Below, piece after piece: positions 2,130-20,243 of a stretch of DNA of 20,446 bases. A program made the translations under genes and the position numbers. The notes under the pieces are model-generated. The model made no database searches and was not told the origin of the DNA. It saw only the letters and a program-made list of their open reading frames with translations. Source of the stretch: a virus; the IMG/VR virus record IMGVR_UViG_3300024518_000240, positions 1 through 20,446 of that record; one strand, 5' to 3'. The stretch's first letter is position 1. Every line of letters begins with the position of its first letter.

Positions 2130-2405
2130 ATGGCAACACAACGAAGAGCATTAGCAATGTGTGATACATGTGGGTTTGTTTATCCGCATAGAGTCATGAG
2201 ACTGAATAGTTATGGAATGTTGGTATGCCCTCAAGACTTTGAAGGACAATATGATTTAAAGAATAATCCTCAGAATAAAATACCAAGAGTAAAAGATAAC
2301 CCTGCTATTAGAAATCCCAGACCAGACACTGGCGGCAGAAGTATTGCATGGAATAATGCTTCCACTAAATGGGATGAGACAGAAAGGCTTTGGCAACAGA
2401 TATGA
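2130..2405 (+). CDS. Zinc-ribbon-like small phage protein
   Basis: The 91-residue product contains CDTCGFVYPHRVM at residues 11-23 and a second partial knuckle, MLVCPQDFEGQYD, near residues 30-42. This resembles a treble-clef or zinc-ribbon half with Cys11, Cys14, Cys33 and a fourth ligand that could be Asp or His (for example His20). The rest is rich in Asn, Pro and Arg and probably extended, ending in ETERLWQQI. Similar CDxCGFxYP proteins are common next to neck genes of uncultured phages; their role is unknown. Its stop overlaps the next start as ATGA. AGAGGAAC at 2112-2119 can serve as the ribosome site. Confidence 0.65.
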   Translation: MATQRRALAMCDTCGFVYPHRVMRLNSYGMLVCPQDFEGQYDLKNNPQNKIPRVKDNPAIRNPRPDTGGRSIAWNNASTKWDETERLWQQI

Positions 2406-3961
2406 CAGATTTAACAGGAACACTAATATCCAATACCTATAAGGATTTACTACAGGTTAACTCCAGTGCATCTAATGGGGGAATTACAACTTCTCTGACT
2501 AATATACAATCAGGTAATGGAGTTAATACAGCATTAAAACTTGCTACTAATCAAGCAAAGATAGATGGAAACTTAGAAGTAGCAGGTACAGTATGTGCAT
2601 CCACATATTACGGAGATGGGTCTAATCTTACAGGTGTTTCGGGTGTTGTAGGAGGTAATATATGTGTAGGGAATGCCTCAGTTGTTGGTAATCTTTATGT
2701 AAGCGGAACAACAAGTATTACTGGTGCTACGGTTCTACATTCTACTGCAACTGTAAGTGGAGCTACTGGCTTTCTAGGAACAGTAAGAGTATCTGGAGCT
2801 ACTTCTTTAGAAGCGGCTGTTGTTATGAAAGATACAGCAACTGTAAGTGGGGCTGCTGGATTTCTAAGCACAGTTAGAGTTAGTGGTAATACAACTATTG
2901 GAGGTACTCTGGATGTACTTGGGAATGTATGTCTGGGAGGAAATGTAACTGTAAAAGGAGATGTACATGTAAGCAGTAAAGTATGTGCTAGTGCTTTCTT
3001 CGGAGATGGTTCAAATATTACAGGTATTCCAATTAGTGGAAATATATCAGTAGGTAATGCTACCATAGCTGGTAATCTTTATGTGAGTGGGACAACAAGT
3101 ATTACAGGAGCAGCAGTTCTTAAATCTACAGCTACTGTATCAGGTAATGTAGGATTTCTTGGAACAGCTAGAGTAGCTGGAGCTACTTCTCTTGAAGGTG
3201 CTGTAGTAATGACTGATACTGCCACTATTACTGGTAACTCAGGTTTTCTGGGAACTCTTAGAGTATCTGGGGCTACTAGTCTGGAGGCGGCTGTAGTAAT
3301 GTCTGATACTGCTACTGTATCTGGAGCAGCAGGATTTCTGGGAACAGTCCGGGTAAGCGGTAATACGACTATTGGAGGTACACTTGATGTATTAGGAAAC
3401 GTATGTCTGGGAGGTAATGTAACCGTAAAGGGTGATGTTCATGTAAGTAGCAAGGTTTGTGCTTCTGCTTTCTTCGGAGACGGGTCTAATATAACTGGAG
3501 TCCCTGTAGCAGGTAATATCTCAGTAGGTAATGCTACCATAGGAGGAAACCTATATGTAGCAGGAACAGCCACTGTATCAGGTAATGCGGCATTCTTGGG
3601 ACAAATAGCTCTCTCTAAATCAGCAGCAGCTTCTGTACATGCAACAGCAATAGATGGAATAACTTCTGTATCCCTTAATTTTGGAACAGCACAGAATTTT
3701 CTGACTACGGTTACAGCAGCACATACAATGGCACAACCAACAAATGCTAGAGTAGGACAAACAGGAAGTATCTTTTTTGTACAGTCAGGAGGAAGTGGAA
3801 CTCTCTCTTGGAATGCTGCTTGGAAATTCCCAGCAGCTACTGATCCAACTTTCTCTACTTCTAATGGAGCAGTAGATAGACTCGATTATATAGTTGCATC
3901 AGTATCAAGTGATGGTGCTGGTGATAACATTCAGGCAATCTTATCACAGGAGTATGGTTAA
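2402..3961 (+). CDS. Repetitive tail fibre protein
   Basis: The product has 519 residues when started at ATG 2402, which overlaps the previous stop as ATGA; an in-frame TTG at 2390 is less likely. After a short head (MTDLTGTLISNTYKDLLQVN) the protein is built from beta-strand repeats of types GTVRVSGATSLEAAVVM, ATVSGAAGFLG and FFGDGSNITG-ISVGNA. Two long units start at 2591 and 2981, and a third partial unit starts at 3455. The second unit has one extra 30-residue module. This is the pattern of trimeric beta-prism/beta-helix fibre shafts. The C-terminus (from about residue 410) is a separate domain containing RVGQTGSIFFVQ and TLSWNAAWKF, shared with the fibre at 5550-6512, probably for trimerisation or receptor binding. 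Confidence 0.8.
   Translation: MTDLTGTLISNTYKDLLQVNSSASNGGITTSLTNIQSGNGVNTALKLATNQAKIDGNLEVAGTVCASTYYGDGSNLTGVSGVVGGNICVGNASVVGNLYVSGTTSITGATVLHSTATVSGATGFLGTVRVSGATSLEAAVVMKDTATVSGAAGFLSTVRVSGNTTIGGTLDVLGNVCLGGNVTVKGDVHVSSKVCASAFFGDGSNITGIPISGNISVGNATIAGNLYVSGTTSITGAAVLKSTATVSGNVGFLGTARVAGATSLEGAVVMTDTATITGNSGFLGTLRVSGATSLEAAVVMSDTATVSGAAGFLGTVRVSGNTTIGGTLDVLGNVCLGGNVTVKGDVHVSSKVCASAFFGDGSNITGVPVAGNISVGNATIGGNLYVAGTATVSGNAAFLGQIALSKSAAASVHATAIDGITSVSLNFGTAQNFLTTVTAAHTMAQPTNARVGQTGSIFFVQSGGSGTLSWNAAWKFPAATDPTFSTSNGAVDRLDYIVASVSSDGAGDNIQAILSQEYG
2870..3025 (+). repeat. Fibre coding repeat, copy 1
   Basis: This stretch encodes 52 residues, from TVRVSGNTTIGG to GDGSNITG, that are identical in copy 2 at 3344-3499. 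The DNA differs at about 29 of 156 positions by my hand count, and every difference is synonymous. Confidence 0.85.
3344..3499 (+). repeat. Fibre coding repeat, copy 2
   Basis: This is the second copy of the 52-residue block. The synonymous changes against copy 1 include an Arg AGA to CGG, a Leu CTT to TTA and a Ser AGT to TCT; the last cannot occur by one silent base change. Confidence 0.85.
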
Positions 3962-5549: not shown

Positions 5550-6512
5550 ATGGCTAGTACATATACAACAAATCTTCGCCTGACTAAACAAGGGGATGGA
5601 GACAATCCAAATACATGGGGCGAAGTTCTCAATAATGTTATTAGCCTTGTTGATCAGGCTGTAGCATCTTATACTACAGTTTCTATAGGATCTGCTGCTA
5701 CTGTTACCCTTACTGAAAATCTGGGAAATTCAGATCAATCTCGCTCTGCCATACTGGAACTTAAAGGTTCAGTAGGGGGAGTAGCTACTTCTATTTTTGT
5801 TCTTATACCTAATTCACCAAAAACTTATGCAATTAGGAATGTAGTTTCAGCTAATACAACTGCTAGTGATGCTGTTGTTTTAAGAGTAGCTGGTAATGCT
5901 GGTGTAACTGTGCCTACAGGAGGAATAGGTTATTTTCTTACTAATGGAACATCTGTATTTTCTCTTAATGCTGCTGGTATCCCCGGTTTAGGCACAGTAG
6001 CTACAAAAGATGTAGGAGTTTGTGCTACAAATATTCCTGATACATCCCTAGCTGATATAAGATATGTACGAACTTCCGTATCCAGTTCTATTGTAGCAGA
6101 GAAAACATTTACAGCTTCGGTTATCTTTACCAGTGCAGTTAGAATGGAATCAGCAGTTAGAATGGATGGATTAGTATCTTTAGCAGGTGCTGTTAAATCT
6201 CACATAACAACTCTTACAGATGCTGCTTCAATTACTACAGATTTTAATACTGCTAATACATTTATGGTAACTTTAGCTGGTAATAGAACACTGGCGGCTC
6301 CCAGTAATGCTCTGGCAGGACAAACAGGAAGTATATATGTAGTACAGGATGGTACTGGAGATAGAACTTTAAGTTATAATGCCGCTTGGAGATTTTCTGA
6401 AGGTTCTGTTCCTGTTGCTACAACTGCTGCTTCTGCTGTAGATCTTTTAATTTATAATGCTAGAAGTGCAACTACAATTGATGCAGTAATGTTACTAGAC
6501 TTTAAGAGATAA
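5550..6512 (+). CDS. Tail fibre protein with marine-phage-type N-terminus
   Basis: The 320-residue protein opens with YTTNLRLTKQGDGDNPNTWG followed by VLNNVISLVDQAVA, an N-terminal attachment segment found in many phage fibres (L-x-L-x-K/T-G-x-x-x-x-x-WG). A beta-rich middle follows. A short repeated shaft (ESAVRMDGLVSLAGAV, residues about 203-220) resembles the repeats of the fibre at 2402-3961. The C-terminal domain contains LAGQTGSIYVVQDGTGDRTL and SYNAAWRF, clearly paralogous to the end of that fibre. GGAG upstream of the ATG is a good ribosome site. Probable role: adsorption. The C-terminal domain is likely the trimerising or receptor-contacting part. Confidence 0.8.
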   Translation: MASTYTTNLRLTKQGDGDNPNTWGEVLNNVISLVDQAVASYTTVSIGSAATVTLTENLGNSDQSRSAILELKGSVGGVATSIFVLIPNSPKTYAIRNVVSANTTASDAVVLRVAGNAGVTVPTGGIGYFLTNGTSVFSLNAAGIPGLGTVATKDVGVCATNIPDTSLADIRYVRTSVSSSIVAEKTFTASVIFTSAVRMESAVRMDGLVSLAGAVKSHITTLTDAASITTDFNTANTFMVTLAGNRTLAAPSNALAGQTGSIYVVQDGTGDRTLSYNAAWRFSEGSVPVATTAASAVDLLIYNARSATTIDAVMLLDFKR

Positions 6513-13099: not shown

Positions 13100-13108
13100 G
13101 GTAGAATA

Positions 13109-16100
13109 ATGCCTCCACAAATAGATTATACAAAATGGGGTGAAGCTGTAGAGCAACAACAAACTAAACCTATTGATTATACTCAATGGGGTGAAGCTGT
13201 TGATACACAAAAACAAACCCAACCTCAACCTCAACAACAAACTAAACCTATTGATTATACTCAATGGGGTGAAGCTGTTACCACAACAGAGGTTGAACCT
13301 GTAGAAACTCCAGACGAAATGGATGAAGATGTACTCGACACTAACAAACAGTGGCTGAGTAATGCTGCCATAATCTATCAAGCTGAAGAAGGAGAGAAGT
13401 GGAAAGGTTCTCAGAAAGCTCTCTCTGATTGGATGAAGGATAGACATTCAAAACTCAATTGGGATATTACCAATATGGGTATGACAGCCTATAATATGGA
13501 TCAGCTAACTGAGGAACAGAAGAAAGCTTGGCTGGAATCCACAACTCAATACTCAGATACAGCTACAGATTGGTCACAATTTGGAAGAGGTCTATATCAT
13601 ACCTTAACAGATCCTGTTACTCTACTTAGTATAGCTACTGGTATTGGTGCGCCTCTCTTATTTGGTGGTAAGGTAGCTGCTGGAGCAGGACTTAACTTTC
13701 TAGGTAAAACTCTTTATAAAAATAATCTGAAAGATGCCCTTATAAAGAAAGGAGTTAGTGCAAAGCTGGCTGAACAGGCATCCAAGAAAGGATCAACAAA
13801 GGGAATAAAGAAAGCTGTTCTAGGAAAAGCCAGAAAGGAAGCTGCTAAAACAACTGCTAAATACTCAGGACTATATGGAGCAGTAGAAGGTGCTGCTTAT
13901 ATGACAGCAGAAGATATAGGTCAACAAGCTTTAGATCTTGGTCTGGATGTAGACAGAATGAAATTTGTTGAAGCTGTTAATGAAGGAGCAAGTTACGAAC
14001 AGGCTATGGAGATAGCCAATAAGACTGATTTTGATTATGGTCAGATGGCAACAATGGCTGGAGCAGGTGCTTTATTTGGGGGAGTTATGGGAGGAGGGCT
14101 TACCAGACTCGCTGAAAAGATAGGGAGAAAGTCAGCCTTACAGAAGGCAGGATGGGAAGGACCAGAAGGAGAGGTCCAGAAGGTAAGTGAGGCTTCCATA
14201 CTTATAGGATCAAAAGATACTCCTAATAATATTATAACTAAAGTAAACGAAGTAAAAGATAAGTTAGAAGTAGATGGTACAGTAACTGTAGATGTATCTA
14301 AATCCAGAAAAGATTTGGCTGATGAATTAAGGGAAATGAAAAAGACAGATGAATGGAAGGATATGACTCCCAAACAAAGGAGGGAGTGGAGAACTAATGC
14401 TCGTAAAGGACATGTAGAAAGGGAAGTAACTGTACAAGATACATTTGAAAATGAAGGTATTGTACTAGAACCTGTAAAAGGACAAAGAGGAAAGTATGTA
14501 GGAAGAAAGATTACAGAGGAAGTAACAGAGGAAGGAAGCGGAATAGGAGATCAAAGAAAAGTTGGAGAAAGAATTGTAGCTAAATTTAAAGGAGAATTTT
14601 TTGATGATGGGGGTACTAATAATGCTGTAAAATTAGCTAGAACCAGAAAGGATTCTGCCTTTAGAGCCATTGAAAGAAATGTAGAAGGATTATTAAAAAA
14701 GTATTCTAAAGCTATTCAAAAGAATTATGAACTTCCTTTAAGAAAAATTCCTAAAGAATTAAATAAGGTATTAGATGATGCCTTCAGAGGAGATGCAACA
14801 CAACTTGCCAAGCTTGAAAGTGAAGCTCCAGAAACTGCTACTGTAATAAAAGAAATGAGGGAACAAATTAAATTTCTTCAAAGGCAATTGGTTGAGGAAG
14901 ATCCTACAACTGGAAAAAAATTAGGAATTATAAAAGAAGGAAAAGCAGGTGAAGAACTTGAAGCCAAGATTGTAGCTTCCATGACTGATACAGGTAAACC
15001 TACTCTCTATGTTACTCGTAAGTATCAGATGCATGATAATCCTAAGTGGACAAAGTTTTTAAATAAAACAGATGAAGGTGCTAAAATAAGAGAGAGAGCC
15101 AGAAATTTTATTAAATTACAGGCTGCTTCTCGTCACCCGGCACTTGGGGCTGTCCTAAAGAAAAATGCTTCACAAAGAACAGTAGAAGATAAGCAGATCC
15201 TTGAATCCTATATGGGTACAGATGGTTATGTAGATAATGTAATTACTGATATTCTTAAAATGAATGATGAATCAGATTTAATTACTGTATTTTCTAAAGA
15301 ATACAATAAGAAAAATAGTTTATATGATAATGCTTCTGATATTTTAAAGAGAAGGCAAGATATTCCAAAAGAGATACGTGAGTTGATGGGAGAATATGAT
15401 AATCCTGTTTCAAATTATGCCAATACAGCAATGAAAGTGTTTCAGACTATTGAAGACTTTAAGTATGAAAAACAAATTGCAGATGCTATTAAACTGGGAG
15501 ACATAGCAGGAACAGCTACTCGTAAACTTCCTTCAGAAGGAATAACAGTTCCATTAAGATCGAGCCTTCCACCCACAAAAGGAGTAGTACAACCTTTAGA
15601 GGAAGCAGCAGGTATAGTGAAACCTCTGGCAGGAATAAAGGAGGGCGATCAAATGTATGGTACAAAAGAAGTCGCTGCCTTTATTGCCAATGGAAACGAA
15701 ATGGCAATATCTTTTCCTAAATCTATACAGACATACCTGATGTTGCAAGGACATTCCAGAGCAGCTAAAACAATCTGGAGTGTAACATCTACAGCCAGAA
15801 ACTTCCTTAGTGGTGGATGGATGGCTCTTGGAGCAGGATACCTGAACCCTAAACATCTGAAAGAAATTCCCAGAGTCTTCAGAGGAATGTATCTTAAATC
15901 TAATGAAGCTCTTAACATTGATATGGAAAGAGGACTAGCTCTGGGTATTATACAGAGTGGTACAGATATAGGATCATTCAGGGGAGCTATGAAGGATGCT
16001 GGACAAGAATCTTTTTGGGATCTTACCTCTCCTCTTTATAAAGGAGAAAGAAGTCTAATAGATAGAGCTAAGAGTGCTAATACTACTGCTGCTAAATTCT

Positions 16101-17596: not shown

Positions 17597-17958
17597 TGCT
17601 AGAACTAGGACCAAGAGAACTCCTGACATTTGGGATAGTGCTGGCTGGTGTAGCTACTACATGGGGAGTCCTGAAAGCTACCATTAGATCTATTATAAAT
17701 CAACTGGATAGTATGAAACAAAACGTAACAGAAATATTTACCCGGATAGATAAGGTAGAAGCAAGACAAGCTGTTGCTCTATCCTCTATTGATGTCATGG
17801 CAAAGGACATACTCTCTCCTCAAATTCTGAAGGAAAGATCTGAGAGAGATGGAGCTATTGAAATGAGACTAGCAGCTATTGAAAAAGATCTGGATAGGTT
17901 CTATCGAATGCATAATGGAACACATCCCCCACCAACCAAAGAAAAGGAAGAAGAATAA
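17596..17958 (+). CDS. Membrane-anchored coiled-coil lysis protein (holin or inner-spanin candidate)
   Basis: The 120-residue protein has a short polar start, one membrane segment about residues 9-30 (LLTFGIVLAGVATTWGVLKA), and a long charged helix (IINQLDSMKQNVTEIFTRID, then EMRLAAIEKDLDRFYRMHNG) likely to be a coiled coil. The tail is Pro/Glu-rich. It overlaps the preceding stop (TAATG) and is overlapped by one base by the endolysin start, so it belongs to a lysis pair. This topology fits an inner-membrane spanin subunit or a single-span holin. No outer-spanin lipoprotein is seen nearby. A second, clearer holin lies on the other strand at 19842-20243. Confidence 0.6.
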   Translation: MLELGPRELLTFGIVLAGVATTWGVLKATIRSIINQLDSMKQNVTEIFTRIDKVEARQAVALSSIDVMAKDILSPQILKERSERDGAIEMRLAAIEKDLDRFYRMHNGTHPPPTKEKEEE

Positions 17959-18335
17959 TGTGGCAGTACTTTAGTGTTGAAGAACTTAAGTGCAAAGGTA
18001 CAGATGAATGTCAGATGGACACAGAATTTATGAAAAAGCTTGAAGCTTTGCGGAGGGAATTTAATCAGCCTATGATCATAACTTCAGGATACAGACATGA
18101 ATCTTATAATCAGGTTATAGGAGGATCTAAAAACTCTCCACATTTATACGGTAAAGCAGTTGATGTCTTGGTCAGTGGTAAGACTGCCTATAGATTAATG
18201 AAGTTAGCTATCCAACATGGCTTCACTGGCATAGGAGTATCTCAAAGAGGACCACATGAAGGTAGGTTTCTACACATAGATACTATGGATAGTAGTAATA
18301 TACATCCCAGACCTTGGATATGGAGCTATAAATAG
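17958..18335 (+). CDS. M15-family (Peptidase_M15_3) endolysin
   Basis: The 125-residue protein matches small zinc D-Ala-D-Ala/L-Ala-D-Glu-type carboxypeptidases used as phage endolysins. Key features are MIITSGYRHESYNQVIGG (residues 39-56), the zinc site HLYGKAVD (His62, Asp69), a second site FLHID (His106, Asp108), and the C-terminal RPWIWSYK. His62, Asp69 and His106 are the expected metal ligands, and Asp108 lies beside the catalytic site. There is no signal peptide, so export depends on a holin. GGAAG upstream of the ATG gives a good ribosome site and the start overlaps the previous stop. It ends the rightward arm. Confidence 0.88.
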   Translation: MWQYFSVEELKCKGTDECQMDTEFMKKLEALRREFNQPMIITSGYRHESYNQVIGGSKNSPHLYGKAVDVLVSGKTAYRLMKLAIQHGFTGIGVSQRGPHEGRFLHIDTMDSSNIHPRPWIWSYK

Positions 18336-18659: not shown

Positions 18660-19172
18660 TCATACAGGAGAAGTAGCCTCTTCAGGCTGGGGTAGGTCCA
18701 GAGACTCCTCTACACCCCCCTCAGTGACGCTCTCTGGCTCTCCATTTTCCTCATCATCCTCATAAATCGTAAAGTCACACTTAGATAGAAGGTCTAATAC
18801 CTTTTCTTCTCCTAAAACGTTAAGACATCCTACAATTGCACCTTCTAAAGTTTCTTCATCCAGATTAATGTTAACATCTGAGTTAGCTCCCCTCACTCTG
18901 GAGAGTAATTCAAGAGCTTTGATTGCACTATTGGTATGTCCATTTGCTTTGGCATAGGTATACTGACTTTCTATTTCTTCTATAACATTAACATTTGTTT
19001 CAAGCTCTTGTTCAAGATCTTTTATTCTTTCTGTAATCTCATCTGACTGAAGTAATCTATATCCCTGATTGTAGGCAGATGCTTTTGCATAACCTGCTGC
19101 TCTAGCTGCTTCAGTAGCATTCCTGTGAAGAACATAAGCTTGAGCAAACTTTTCCTGTTTATCATTTAACAT
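18660..19172 (-). CDS. terS: Terminase small subunit (Terminase_2-like)
   Basis: The N-terminal 50 residues carry the Terminase_2 DNA-binding pattern: LNDKQEKFAQAYVLHRNATE, AARAAGYAKASAYNQGYRLL, and SDEITERIKDLEQEL. A helical oligomerisation region follows, then an acidic Pro/Glu-rich tail. The small subunit binds the packaging start site and recruits the large ATPase/nuclease. I chose ATG 19172 (170 residues) because the product then begins directly with the family pattern; ATG 19190 would add six residues and has no ribosome site. It overlaps the preceding membrane-protein gene by 11 bases. The large subunit is not in this window. Confidence 0.8.
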   Translation of the reverse strand: MLNDKQEKFAQAYVLHRNATEAARAAGYAKASAYNQGYRLLQSDEITERIKDLEQELETNVNVIEEIESQYTYAKANGHTNSAIKALELLSRVRGANSDVNINLDEETLEGAIVGCLNVLGEEKVLDLLSKCDFTIYEDDEENGEPESVTEGGVEESLDLPQPEEATSPV

Positions 19173-19416
19173 AATAAGATACCAATCCATTAATTAATAA
19201 GACAAGAGAGACAGCATTGATTACAAGTAATGCTCTGTCATTCCAGATGATAGCTACAATAAACCATCCAAACATTCCAATGGCATGAACCATCAGGTTA
19301 AGAGGGTAGATGTTATTGCTGGTCAGGATAACTCCTCCTACCAGTATGATTGAAGCTATCCATTTAATATACCAATCAAGAGTATGAGTTGGTGTTTGTT
19401 TAATTAATTTAGTCAT
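19162..19416 (-). CDS. Small integral membrane protein, three predicted spans
   Basis: The start is ATG 19416, overlapping the stop of the Fe-S carrier as ATGA, giving 84 residues; upstream ATGs at 19443 and 19437 would lie inside that gene. Three hydrophobic segments are visible: about residues 18-33 (WIASIILVGGVILTSN), 38-57 (LNLMVHAIGMFGWFIVAIIW), and 61-83 (ALLVINAVSLVLLINGLVSY). Short polar loops separate them; the N-terminus is basic (MTKLIKQTPTHTLDWYIKW). Similar small three-span proteins accompany packaging genes in marine phages. The function is unknown, and a holin-like or holin-modulating role is possible. Confidence 0.7.
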   Translation of the reverse strand: MTKLIKQTPTHTLDWYIKWIASIILVGGVILTSNNIYPLNLMVHAIGMFGWFIVAIIWNDRALLVINAVSLVLLINGLVSYYVK

Positions 19417-19742
19417 ACCTGAAAACTTTCTCCGCATCCACACATGGATTCTACATTAGGGTTATCAATCATAAGACGCTGACCAAAGATGTCCTTCTTA
19501 TAGTCCACCGTCATTCCTGCTACATAAACACTGGAGATATTATCGATAACAAGTTTACCTGTATCCAGATCTATAATGAAGTCATCGATAATGTCATCGA
19601 ACTCTTCCTCAGTGACAAGCTGCCAATCATAGGTAAAGCCAGAGCATCCTCCGCTGTTAACTGCTAGTCGAATAGCAGCTACCTTATTCTCTGCAACAAC
19701 AGAGGATAGGTGTATGTCTGCGTTGTCAGTCAGCTTTATCAT
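19413..19742 (-). CDS. A-type iron-sulfur cluster carrier (IscA/ErpA/HesB-like)
   Basis: The 109-residue protein has the length and signature of A-type Fe-S carriers. The first cysteine is in SGGCSGFTYDWQL (Cys33), and the last two are in CGCGESF (Cys101 and Cys103) near the C-terminus. Between them are the family-typical GMTVDYKKDIFGQRLMIDNPN. All three cluster-binding cysteines are present, so it is likely functional. Such proteins receive a [2Fe-2S] or [4Fe-4S] cluster from a scaffold and hand it to target enzymes in the cytoplasm. No other Fe-S assembly gene is in the window, so it would plug into the host machinery. It lies in a holin/terminase operon, overlapped at both ends. Confidence 0.9.
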   Translation of the reverse strand: MIKLTDNADIHLSSVVAENKVAAIRLAVNSGGCSGFTYDWQLVTEEEFDDIIDDFIIDLDTGKLVIDNISSVYVAGMTVDYKKDIFGQRLMIDNPNVESMCGCGESFQV

Positions 19743-19842
19743 CTTTCTTACCTGAGAAATATTTAGGGTTACCTGTACCTGACAGCTTTTTATTTAGCCA
19801 GATACAGAACCTCCACTGCAATTTATAAAGCCACTTAAGCAT
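19726..19842 (-). CDS. 38-aa hypothetical protein between holin and Fe-S carrier genes
   Basis: This short frame starts with ATG 19842-19840, which overlaps the holin stop as TAATG. It ends with TGA at 19728-19726, 17 bases inside the Fe-S carrier gene. The product is basic and aromatic: MLKWLYKLQWRFCIWLNKKL, then SGTGNPKYFSGKKDDKAD. The first 17 residues form an amphipathic or weakly hydrophobic helix with three tryptophans and one cysteine; the rest is polar. It fills what would otherwise be a 99-base gap in an operon with no gaps, and both junctions show translational coupling. No family is recognised. It could associate with the membrane or with its holin neighbour. Confidence 0.6.
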   Translation of the reverse strand: MLKWLYKLQWRFCIWLNKKLSGTGNPKYFSGKKDDKAD

Positions 19843-20243
19843 TACTTCATATTATTTCTTTGTATACCCTTGAACTTTTCAAAAGATCTCATAGATCCAA
19901 GACCTAGTAAGGATAAAGTTAACGGCATTAAACCTTCTGTTTCAAAAAGTGGGAGCATAAGTTCTGATCCACTAACTGCAAGTATCCATGCAGCTACAGG
20001 CTGAAAGACAAACTGCCAACCCAGACCAAAGGCACATATCCACATGATGGCTGGCCTAGCTCCTGCAATAAACACACTGGAATGTTTTGCTTGCTCAAGG
20101 TTTGTTTGTGCCTGAGCCAGATCCAGTGATATAATTTGTGACTTAAGTTCTGATTCAAGTTTTCTCTTTAAATCTTTATCTTCAACAAACTTATCAAGAA
20201 CTTTACCTGCTACTCCTACTACTGATTCTACTATTCCTAACAT
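19842..20243 (-). CDS. 3-TM holin (GTA_holin_3TM family)
   Basis: The 133-residue protein matches the GTA_holin_3TM layout. An N-terminal amphipathic region (residues 1-20) is followed by DKFVEDKDLKRKLESELKSQ, a helix ending QAKHSSVFIAGARPAIMW (the EAKh-S-x-F-x-AG-x-RP motif), two membrane spans (about 62-90), a loop, a third span (about 105-118) and the closing GLGSMRSFEKFKG. Such holins accumulate in the inner membrane and release the endolysin. They are common in alphaproteobacterial phages and gene transfer agents. A near-perfect Shine-Dalgarno precedes it. The endolysin it would serve is on the opposite strand. Confidence 0.88.
   Translation of the reverse strand: MLGIVESVVGVAGKVLDKFVEDKDLKRKLESELKSQIISLDLAQAQTNLEQAKHSSVFIAGARPAIMWICAFGLGWQFVFQPVAAWILAVSGSELMLPLFETEGLMPLTLSLLGLGSMRSFEKFKGIQRNNMK

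Follow-up and report, generated by a model that had tools for sequence, protein, structure and literature searches.

Polyubiquitin carries identical protein repeats that differ at many synonymous sites, a pattern attributed to purifying selection under birth-and-death evolution (Nei et al. 2000) or to slow concerted evolution (PMC10457151). In their 2016 survey, Persi, Wolf and Koonin reported that protein repeats typically pass through rapid divergence once duplicated and are conserved thereafter (PMC5120217). Here, we describe a marine phage gene, probably for a tail fibre, that encodes the same 52 residues twice in differing DNA, in a 20,446-nucleotide stretch of viral DNA (IMG/VR record IMGVR_UViG_3300024518_000240; hereafter, the window). 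As in polyubiquitin, the repeats (blocks A and B) lie in one gene, their protein is kept while silent sites diverge, and the copies would arise from duplication or unequal exchange; unlike in polyubiquitin, they belong to one structural fibre and are not processed into monomers. Each block is also nearer to its orthologues in other phages than to its partner, the reverse of what PMC10457151 describes for polyubiquitin. As with the repeats surveyed in PMC5120217, orthologues of each copy are strongly conserved, but the amino acid divergence between the two paralogues is zero, so that the conserved phase of that scheme fits and the fast phase does not. Among the open-access papers on synonymously diverged repeats in phage tail fibres, we found none on the present case. 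The reading that we favor, with a probability of about 0.82, is an ancient module duplication followed by independent evolution, with silent drift and purifying selection on the shaft or junction.

The probable fibre gene and its shaft

The probable tail-fibre gene (2402–3961, with all of its parts on the + strand) encodes 519 amino acids from the ATG at 2402 (MTDLTG..., a start shared by relatives) to the stop codon at 3959–3961. Near its N-terminus lies a diverged relative of the 3' half of the block (VCASTYYGDGSNLTG; 2591–2637, repeat family D5). Five 30-residue shaft units follow, the first two at 2744–2833 and 2834–2923 and the remaining three at 3128–3217, 3218–3307, and 3308–3397, with the second running into block A (2870–3025) and the fifth into block B (3344–3499). 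The C-terminal domain (3593–3958) is kin to the C-terminus of a second fibre-like gene (5550–6512), matching its positions 6132–6509 with 43% identity over 94 residues (E 7e-23). PHROG matches of the gene were mostly to families of unassigned function, with a weaker match to the tail-fibre family phrog_4549 (E 6e-6), and a Pfam search of the fibre yielded a sub-threshold LED_rpt match only, which we set aside. The marine phage fibre or virion families PHROG 5070, 7964, 36281, and 697 matched 29 of 29 aligned two-block segments, and 4549 matched 28 of 29; these matches cover the repeat segments, not full-length proteins, and most of the families lack an assigned function.

The fibre gene adjoins an SU10-adaptor-like gene. 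The nearest annotated relatives of a virion structural gene downstream include the Pelagibacter phages HTVC023P and HTVC027P and the Roseobacter phages CRP-901 and CRP-902, all at <60% identity, and these two groups have been described as related (PMC10149686). Toward the far end of the window, a peptidase M15 endolysin-like gene occupies 17958–18335 (+), and the genes switch strand at about 18335. Beyond this point, the genes at 19842–20243 (−) and 18660–19190 (−) encode a three-TM holin (GTA_holin_3TM) and a terminase small subunit, respectively. The gene at 19413–19742 (−) matches the iron-sulphur cluster biosynthesis protein family Fe-S_biosyn (PF01521, 4.8e-16) and is possibly a host-derived metabolic gene.

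The block reads in six-residue steps (TVRVSG, NTTIGG, TLDVLG, NVCLGG, NVTVKG, DVHVSS) followed by FFGDGSNITG, and the step pattern of the shaft is xVxVxG. Two AlphaFold monomer models (pLDDT 52 and 66) were used for their six-residue spacing only; one, of low confidence, spaced its strands six residues apart along most of the shaft, and the second, a low-confidence model covering the A-to-B segment, lacked such strands. A fold search of the PDB returned nothing at E <= 0.001. The profile of the A-to-B segment matched hexapeptide-repeat proteins in the PDB (4e75 at E 2e-6), a resemblance that we ascribe to the repeat pattern rather than to kinship. The six-residue spacing is common to the fibre and the LpxD/LpxA acyltransferases, which are hexapeptide-repeat left-handed beta-helices; however, the fibre has no enzyme domain, and both the protein and its context are different. 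Most likely, the block is a fibre-shaft segment that ends in a GDGSN junction and whose step residues are held by packing.

One protein segment in two DNA versions

The residues TVRVSGNTTIGGTLDVLGNVCLGGNVTVKGDVHVSSKVCASAFFGDGSNITG are encoded by both blocks at an offset of 474 nt. Our recount reproduced exactly the coordinates and counts of the preliminary description, which had reported identical 52-residue blocks with about 29 of 156 bases differing silently. Of the 156 bases, 29 differ between the blocks, as do 26 of the 52 codons, with AGA/CGG and AGT/TCT pairs among them; all of these differences are silent, and the codon alignment returned no amino acid difference (0/52). The residues flanking the blocks do differ (S/G before, I/V after), and a longer repeat encloses the block, with five amino acid differences over 94 aligned codons (2786–3067 against the stretch 474 nt downstream) and silent divergence as high as that within the 52 codons. 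Because the path averaging of Nei and Gojobori scores codon pairs that lie two steps apart (AGA/CGG and AGT/TCT, for example) as partly nonsynonymous, the blocks were also read via silent paths, giving a dN of 0 and a dS of 2.55, which lies beyond reliable estimation. Chance or a chimera was rejected as the source of the pair, as the same protein is encoded, with 100% identity, by loci L004 and L005, which come from two IMG/VR samples. The A/B pattern is present in all relatives that retain both copies.

The preliminary description had also proposed selection for DNA divergence, under which silent changes would be favored as they block recombination between A and B and the consequent loss of the 474-bp segment. 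As a null model, we encoded the 52 residues with codons drawn at random according to the codon usage of the gene. Independent draws differed at 30.1 ± 4.2 bases against the 29 observed, and the longest exact run between A and B, 15 bases, was the null median. The same test detected no excess A-B divergence in seven further records (L006–L011 and L016, not all independent), so that divergence and longest runs matched random synonymous recoding in 8/8 records. The silent sites of A and B are saturated, not beyond saturation, and blocks of unrelated phages are equally scrambled relative to each other. Consistent with selection for divergence, no long-range deletions between A and B were seen among the relatives fetched, and the longest exact A-B runs are short (11–23 nt). 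However, exact DNA repeats are tolerated, with 96 nt in the fibre of L016 and 48 nt elsewhere in the window, and the number of 30-residue (90-bp) units varies among relatives, indicating that repeat-driven indels are tolerated as well. As the silent divergence and exact runs are those of random synonymous recoding, nothing indicates that divergence was selected; this earlier proposal was not borne out, and we regard it as extremely improbable.

Both units of the exact 48-base repeat (13154–13201 and 13232–13279) encode QQQTKPIDYTQWGEAV; they lie close to the beginning of a 1495-aa gene, with a third copy at 13103–13150 (67%). It is a young counterpart of the fibre repeat.

Two copy lineages among relatives

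Scanning IMG/VR yielded 28 loci encoding relatives of the whole fibre protein. The A/B comparison covered the window, L006/7, L008, L009, L010/11/16, L018 (A only), and L012 and L013 (B only), with six lineages having copy A and five having both. Base differences between phages amounted to 0–15 for A against A and 0–18 for B against B, versus 23–35 for A against B. The A-to-B spacing in close relatives with both copies is 474 bases, or 564 in L016, and both blocks keep the same residues in these relatives except for D31N in block A of L010, L011, and L016, a D-to-N change confined to one lineage. In a maximum-likelihood tree of 82 blocks, A and B formed separate groups divided by a branch with 92% SH-aLRT support, a separation matched by 0 of 500 label shuffles. 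Within the window's lineage, the copies group by position, not by genome, and A and B of one genome are not more alike than orthologues are. The existence of two separate lineages implies that the copies were distinct before the sampled phages split and that no homogenisation has occurred since; recent gene conversion between A and B was rejected on account of these two lineages.

The relatives L012 and L013 are without block A and carry a different module in its place, with B intact. A deletion between A and B, or a chimera, was rejected for these single-block relatives, as they combine B-type codons with the different module upstream. The preliminary description had named homogenisation of the copies in relatives as evidence that would speak against its account. 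Between A and B, none was seen; outside this pair, an A-type module was copied ectopically to the N-terminal position in L008, so that counter-evidence of this kind exists in part.

Constraint on the protein and spread of the block

Between orthologues from relatives keeping A, dN/dS was 0 in block B and 0–0.04 in block A. In the same relatives, the N-terminal, pre-A, between-block, and C-terminal parts ranged from 0.05 to 0.76, and the N-terminus, pre-A, and between-block segments from 0.11 to 0.76; the 32 codons directly after B likewise had a dN/dS of 0 in some pairs. The earlier claim that the duplication is old and its protein strongly constrained is upheld by the two orthologous lineages, the dN of approximately 0 in each, and the silent saturation between A and B. 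The copies are thus repeats under purifying selection without homogenisation, polyubiquitin-like in the birth-and-death sense.

A scan with the 52 residues recovered 354 matching stretches, and the analysis retained the best 80. Among all loci fetched, 63 distinct ones contained copies of the block, 38 of them with two or three, and the core GGNVTVKGDVHVSSKVCASAF.GDG was near-invariant across the 63. Paired copies in other lineages differ at 5–19 residues, often position-specifically, which argues that the matching of A to B is no general requirement; the full identity of two copies is special to the window's lineage. That A and B are constrained to match each other, for example through binding of the two shaft junctions to one another or to a common partner, is very unlikely. 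If true, such mutual matching would mean that fibre modules evolve in concert at the protein level while their DNA is not currently being homogenised.

In a comparison across five families, pairs of copies from one phage were slightly more alike than pairs from different phages (residues, P 0.03; silent codons, P 0.01), which is a weak hint of old exchange. Such a pattern would be expected under slow concerted evolution, in which occasional short-tract exchange within a phage keeps the proteins alike and silent sites re-diverge between events. Blocks 2 and 3 of L014 could be viewed in the same way, sharing AGNTSL, IKG, and FYG where both copies in the window's lineage have LGNVCL, VKG, and FFG; this sharing hints at either old within-phage exchange or parallel change. 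The silent divergence between these two L014 blocks is saturated. However, the comparison comprises five families only, and no exchange between A and B has taken place since the sampled relatives of the window's lineage split, and we consider slow concerted evolution a rather doubtful explanation of the pair.

Block A differs silently from the single block of L019 at 23–33% of shared codons, with 9–10 amino acid changes, versus 42–63% between block A and block B. As its silent codons are nearer to those of L019 than to those of B, block A may not derive from a simple in-gene copy of B. This resemblance to the upstream block of L019 supports a mosaic origin, in which the second copy, already diverged in DNA, was acquired through recombination from the fibre of another phage that had the same module. 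The wide distribution of the block over 354 matching stretches, the different segment that L012 and L013 hold in A's place, the A-type module at the N-terminal position of L008, and the flank of A in L014, which resembles that in the window's lineage, all agree with an import. Nevertheless, all 52 residues are common to A and B, among them LGNVCL, which otherwise occurs only in L017 among the loci fetched, and in the DNA tree the two blocks fall within a common group (86% SH-aLRT), although silent saturation prevents a firm choice. Taken together, import from another phage is a possible but not a probable source of the second copy.

How the copies may arise

Compared with L010/L011, the fibre of L016 has an extra 90-base unit, with a 96-base exact repeat. 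In L008, the A-type module (the 3' half of the block plus its flank) stands at the N-terminal position, at residue 76, and agrees with the phage's own A copy in 45 identical residues, with 14 of 135 bases changed, all silently. This module indicates that, within the fibre family, segments are at times copied from one position to another. The copies thus range in age from the exact 96 nt of L016 through the 14 silent changes of L008 to the saturated pair A/B, a series that we read as duplicates whose silent sites decay while purifying selection acts. The 30-residue shaft units around the blocks do diverge. Sampling bias could influence this picture, as short-read assembly would break or collapse young identical repeats and leave the silently diverged ones in contigs, and the contigs of L016 and L018 indeed end within the repeat region. 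However, such bias accounts for missing repeats and not for protein identity, and some exact repeats were assembled (L016), which makes it an unlikely explanation.

According to the favored reading of ancient duplication with independent evolution, the fibre shaft would be built of six-residue steps grouped into larger modules, one of which (block plus flank) would have been doubled, 474 bases apart, by DNA-level copying long before the sampled relatives separated. We infer that this event took place within the gene. The copies would then have evolved independently, their silent positions drifting to saturation, while purifying selection on the shaft or junction structure would have purged nearly all amino acid changes in each copy. 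The constraint presumably stems from the hexad-repeat fold of the fibre and its GDGSN junction. Protein identity would consequently reflect the same structural constraint acting twice, rather than ongoing gene conversion, and the DNA difference would be neutral drift.

In our judgment, the case is real and clean but ordinary: scrambled DNA beneath an identical protein requires no selection for scrambling. The GGNVTVKGDVHVSSKVCASAF.GDG core marks a widespread, uncharacterised marine fibre module that is worth a structure. Moreover, this fibre family would offer a clean phage example of shafts growing by module copying, in which exact, silently diverging, and saturated copies occur within one family while the protein stays frozen.
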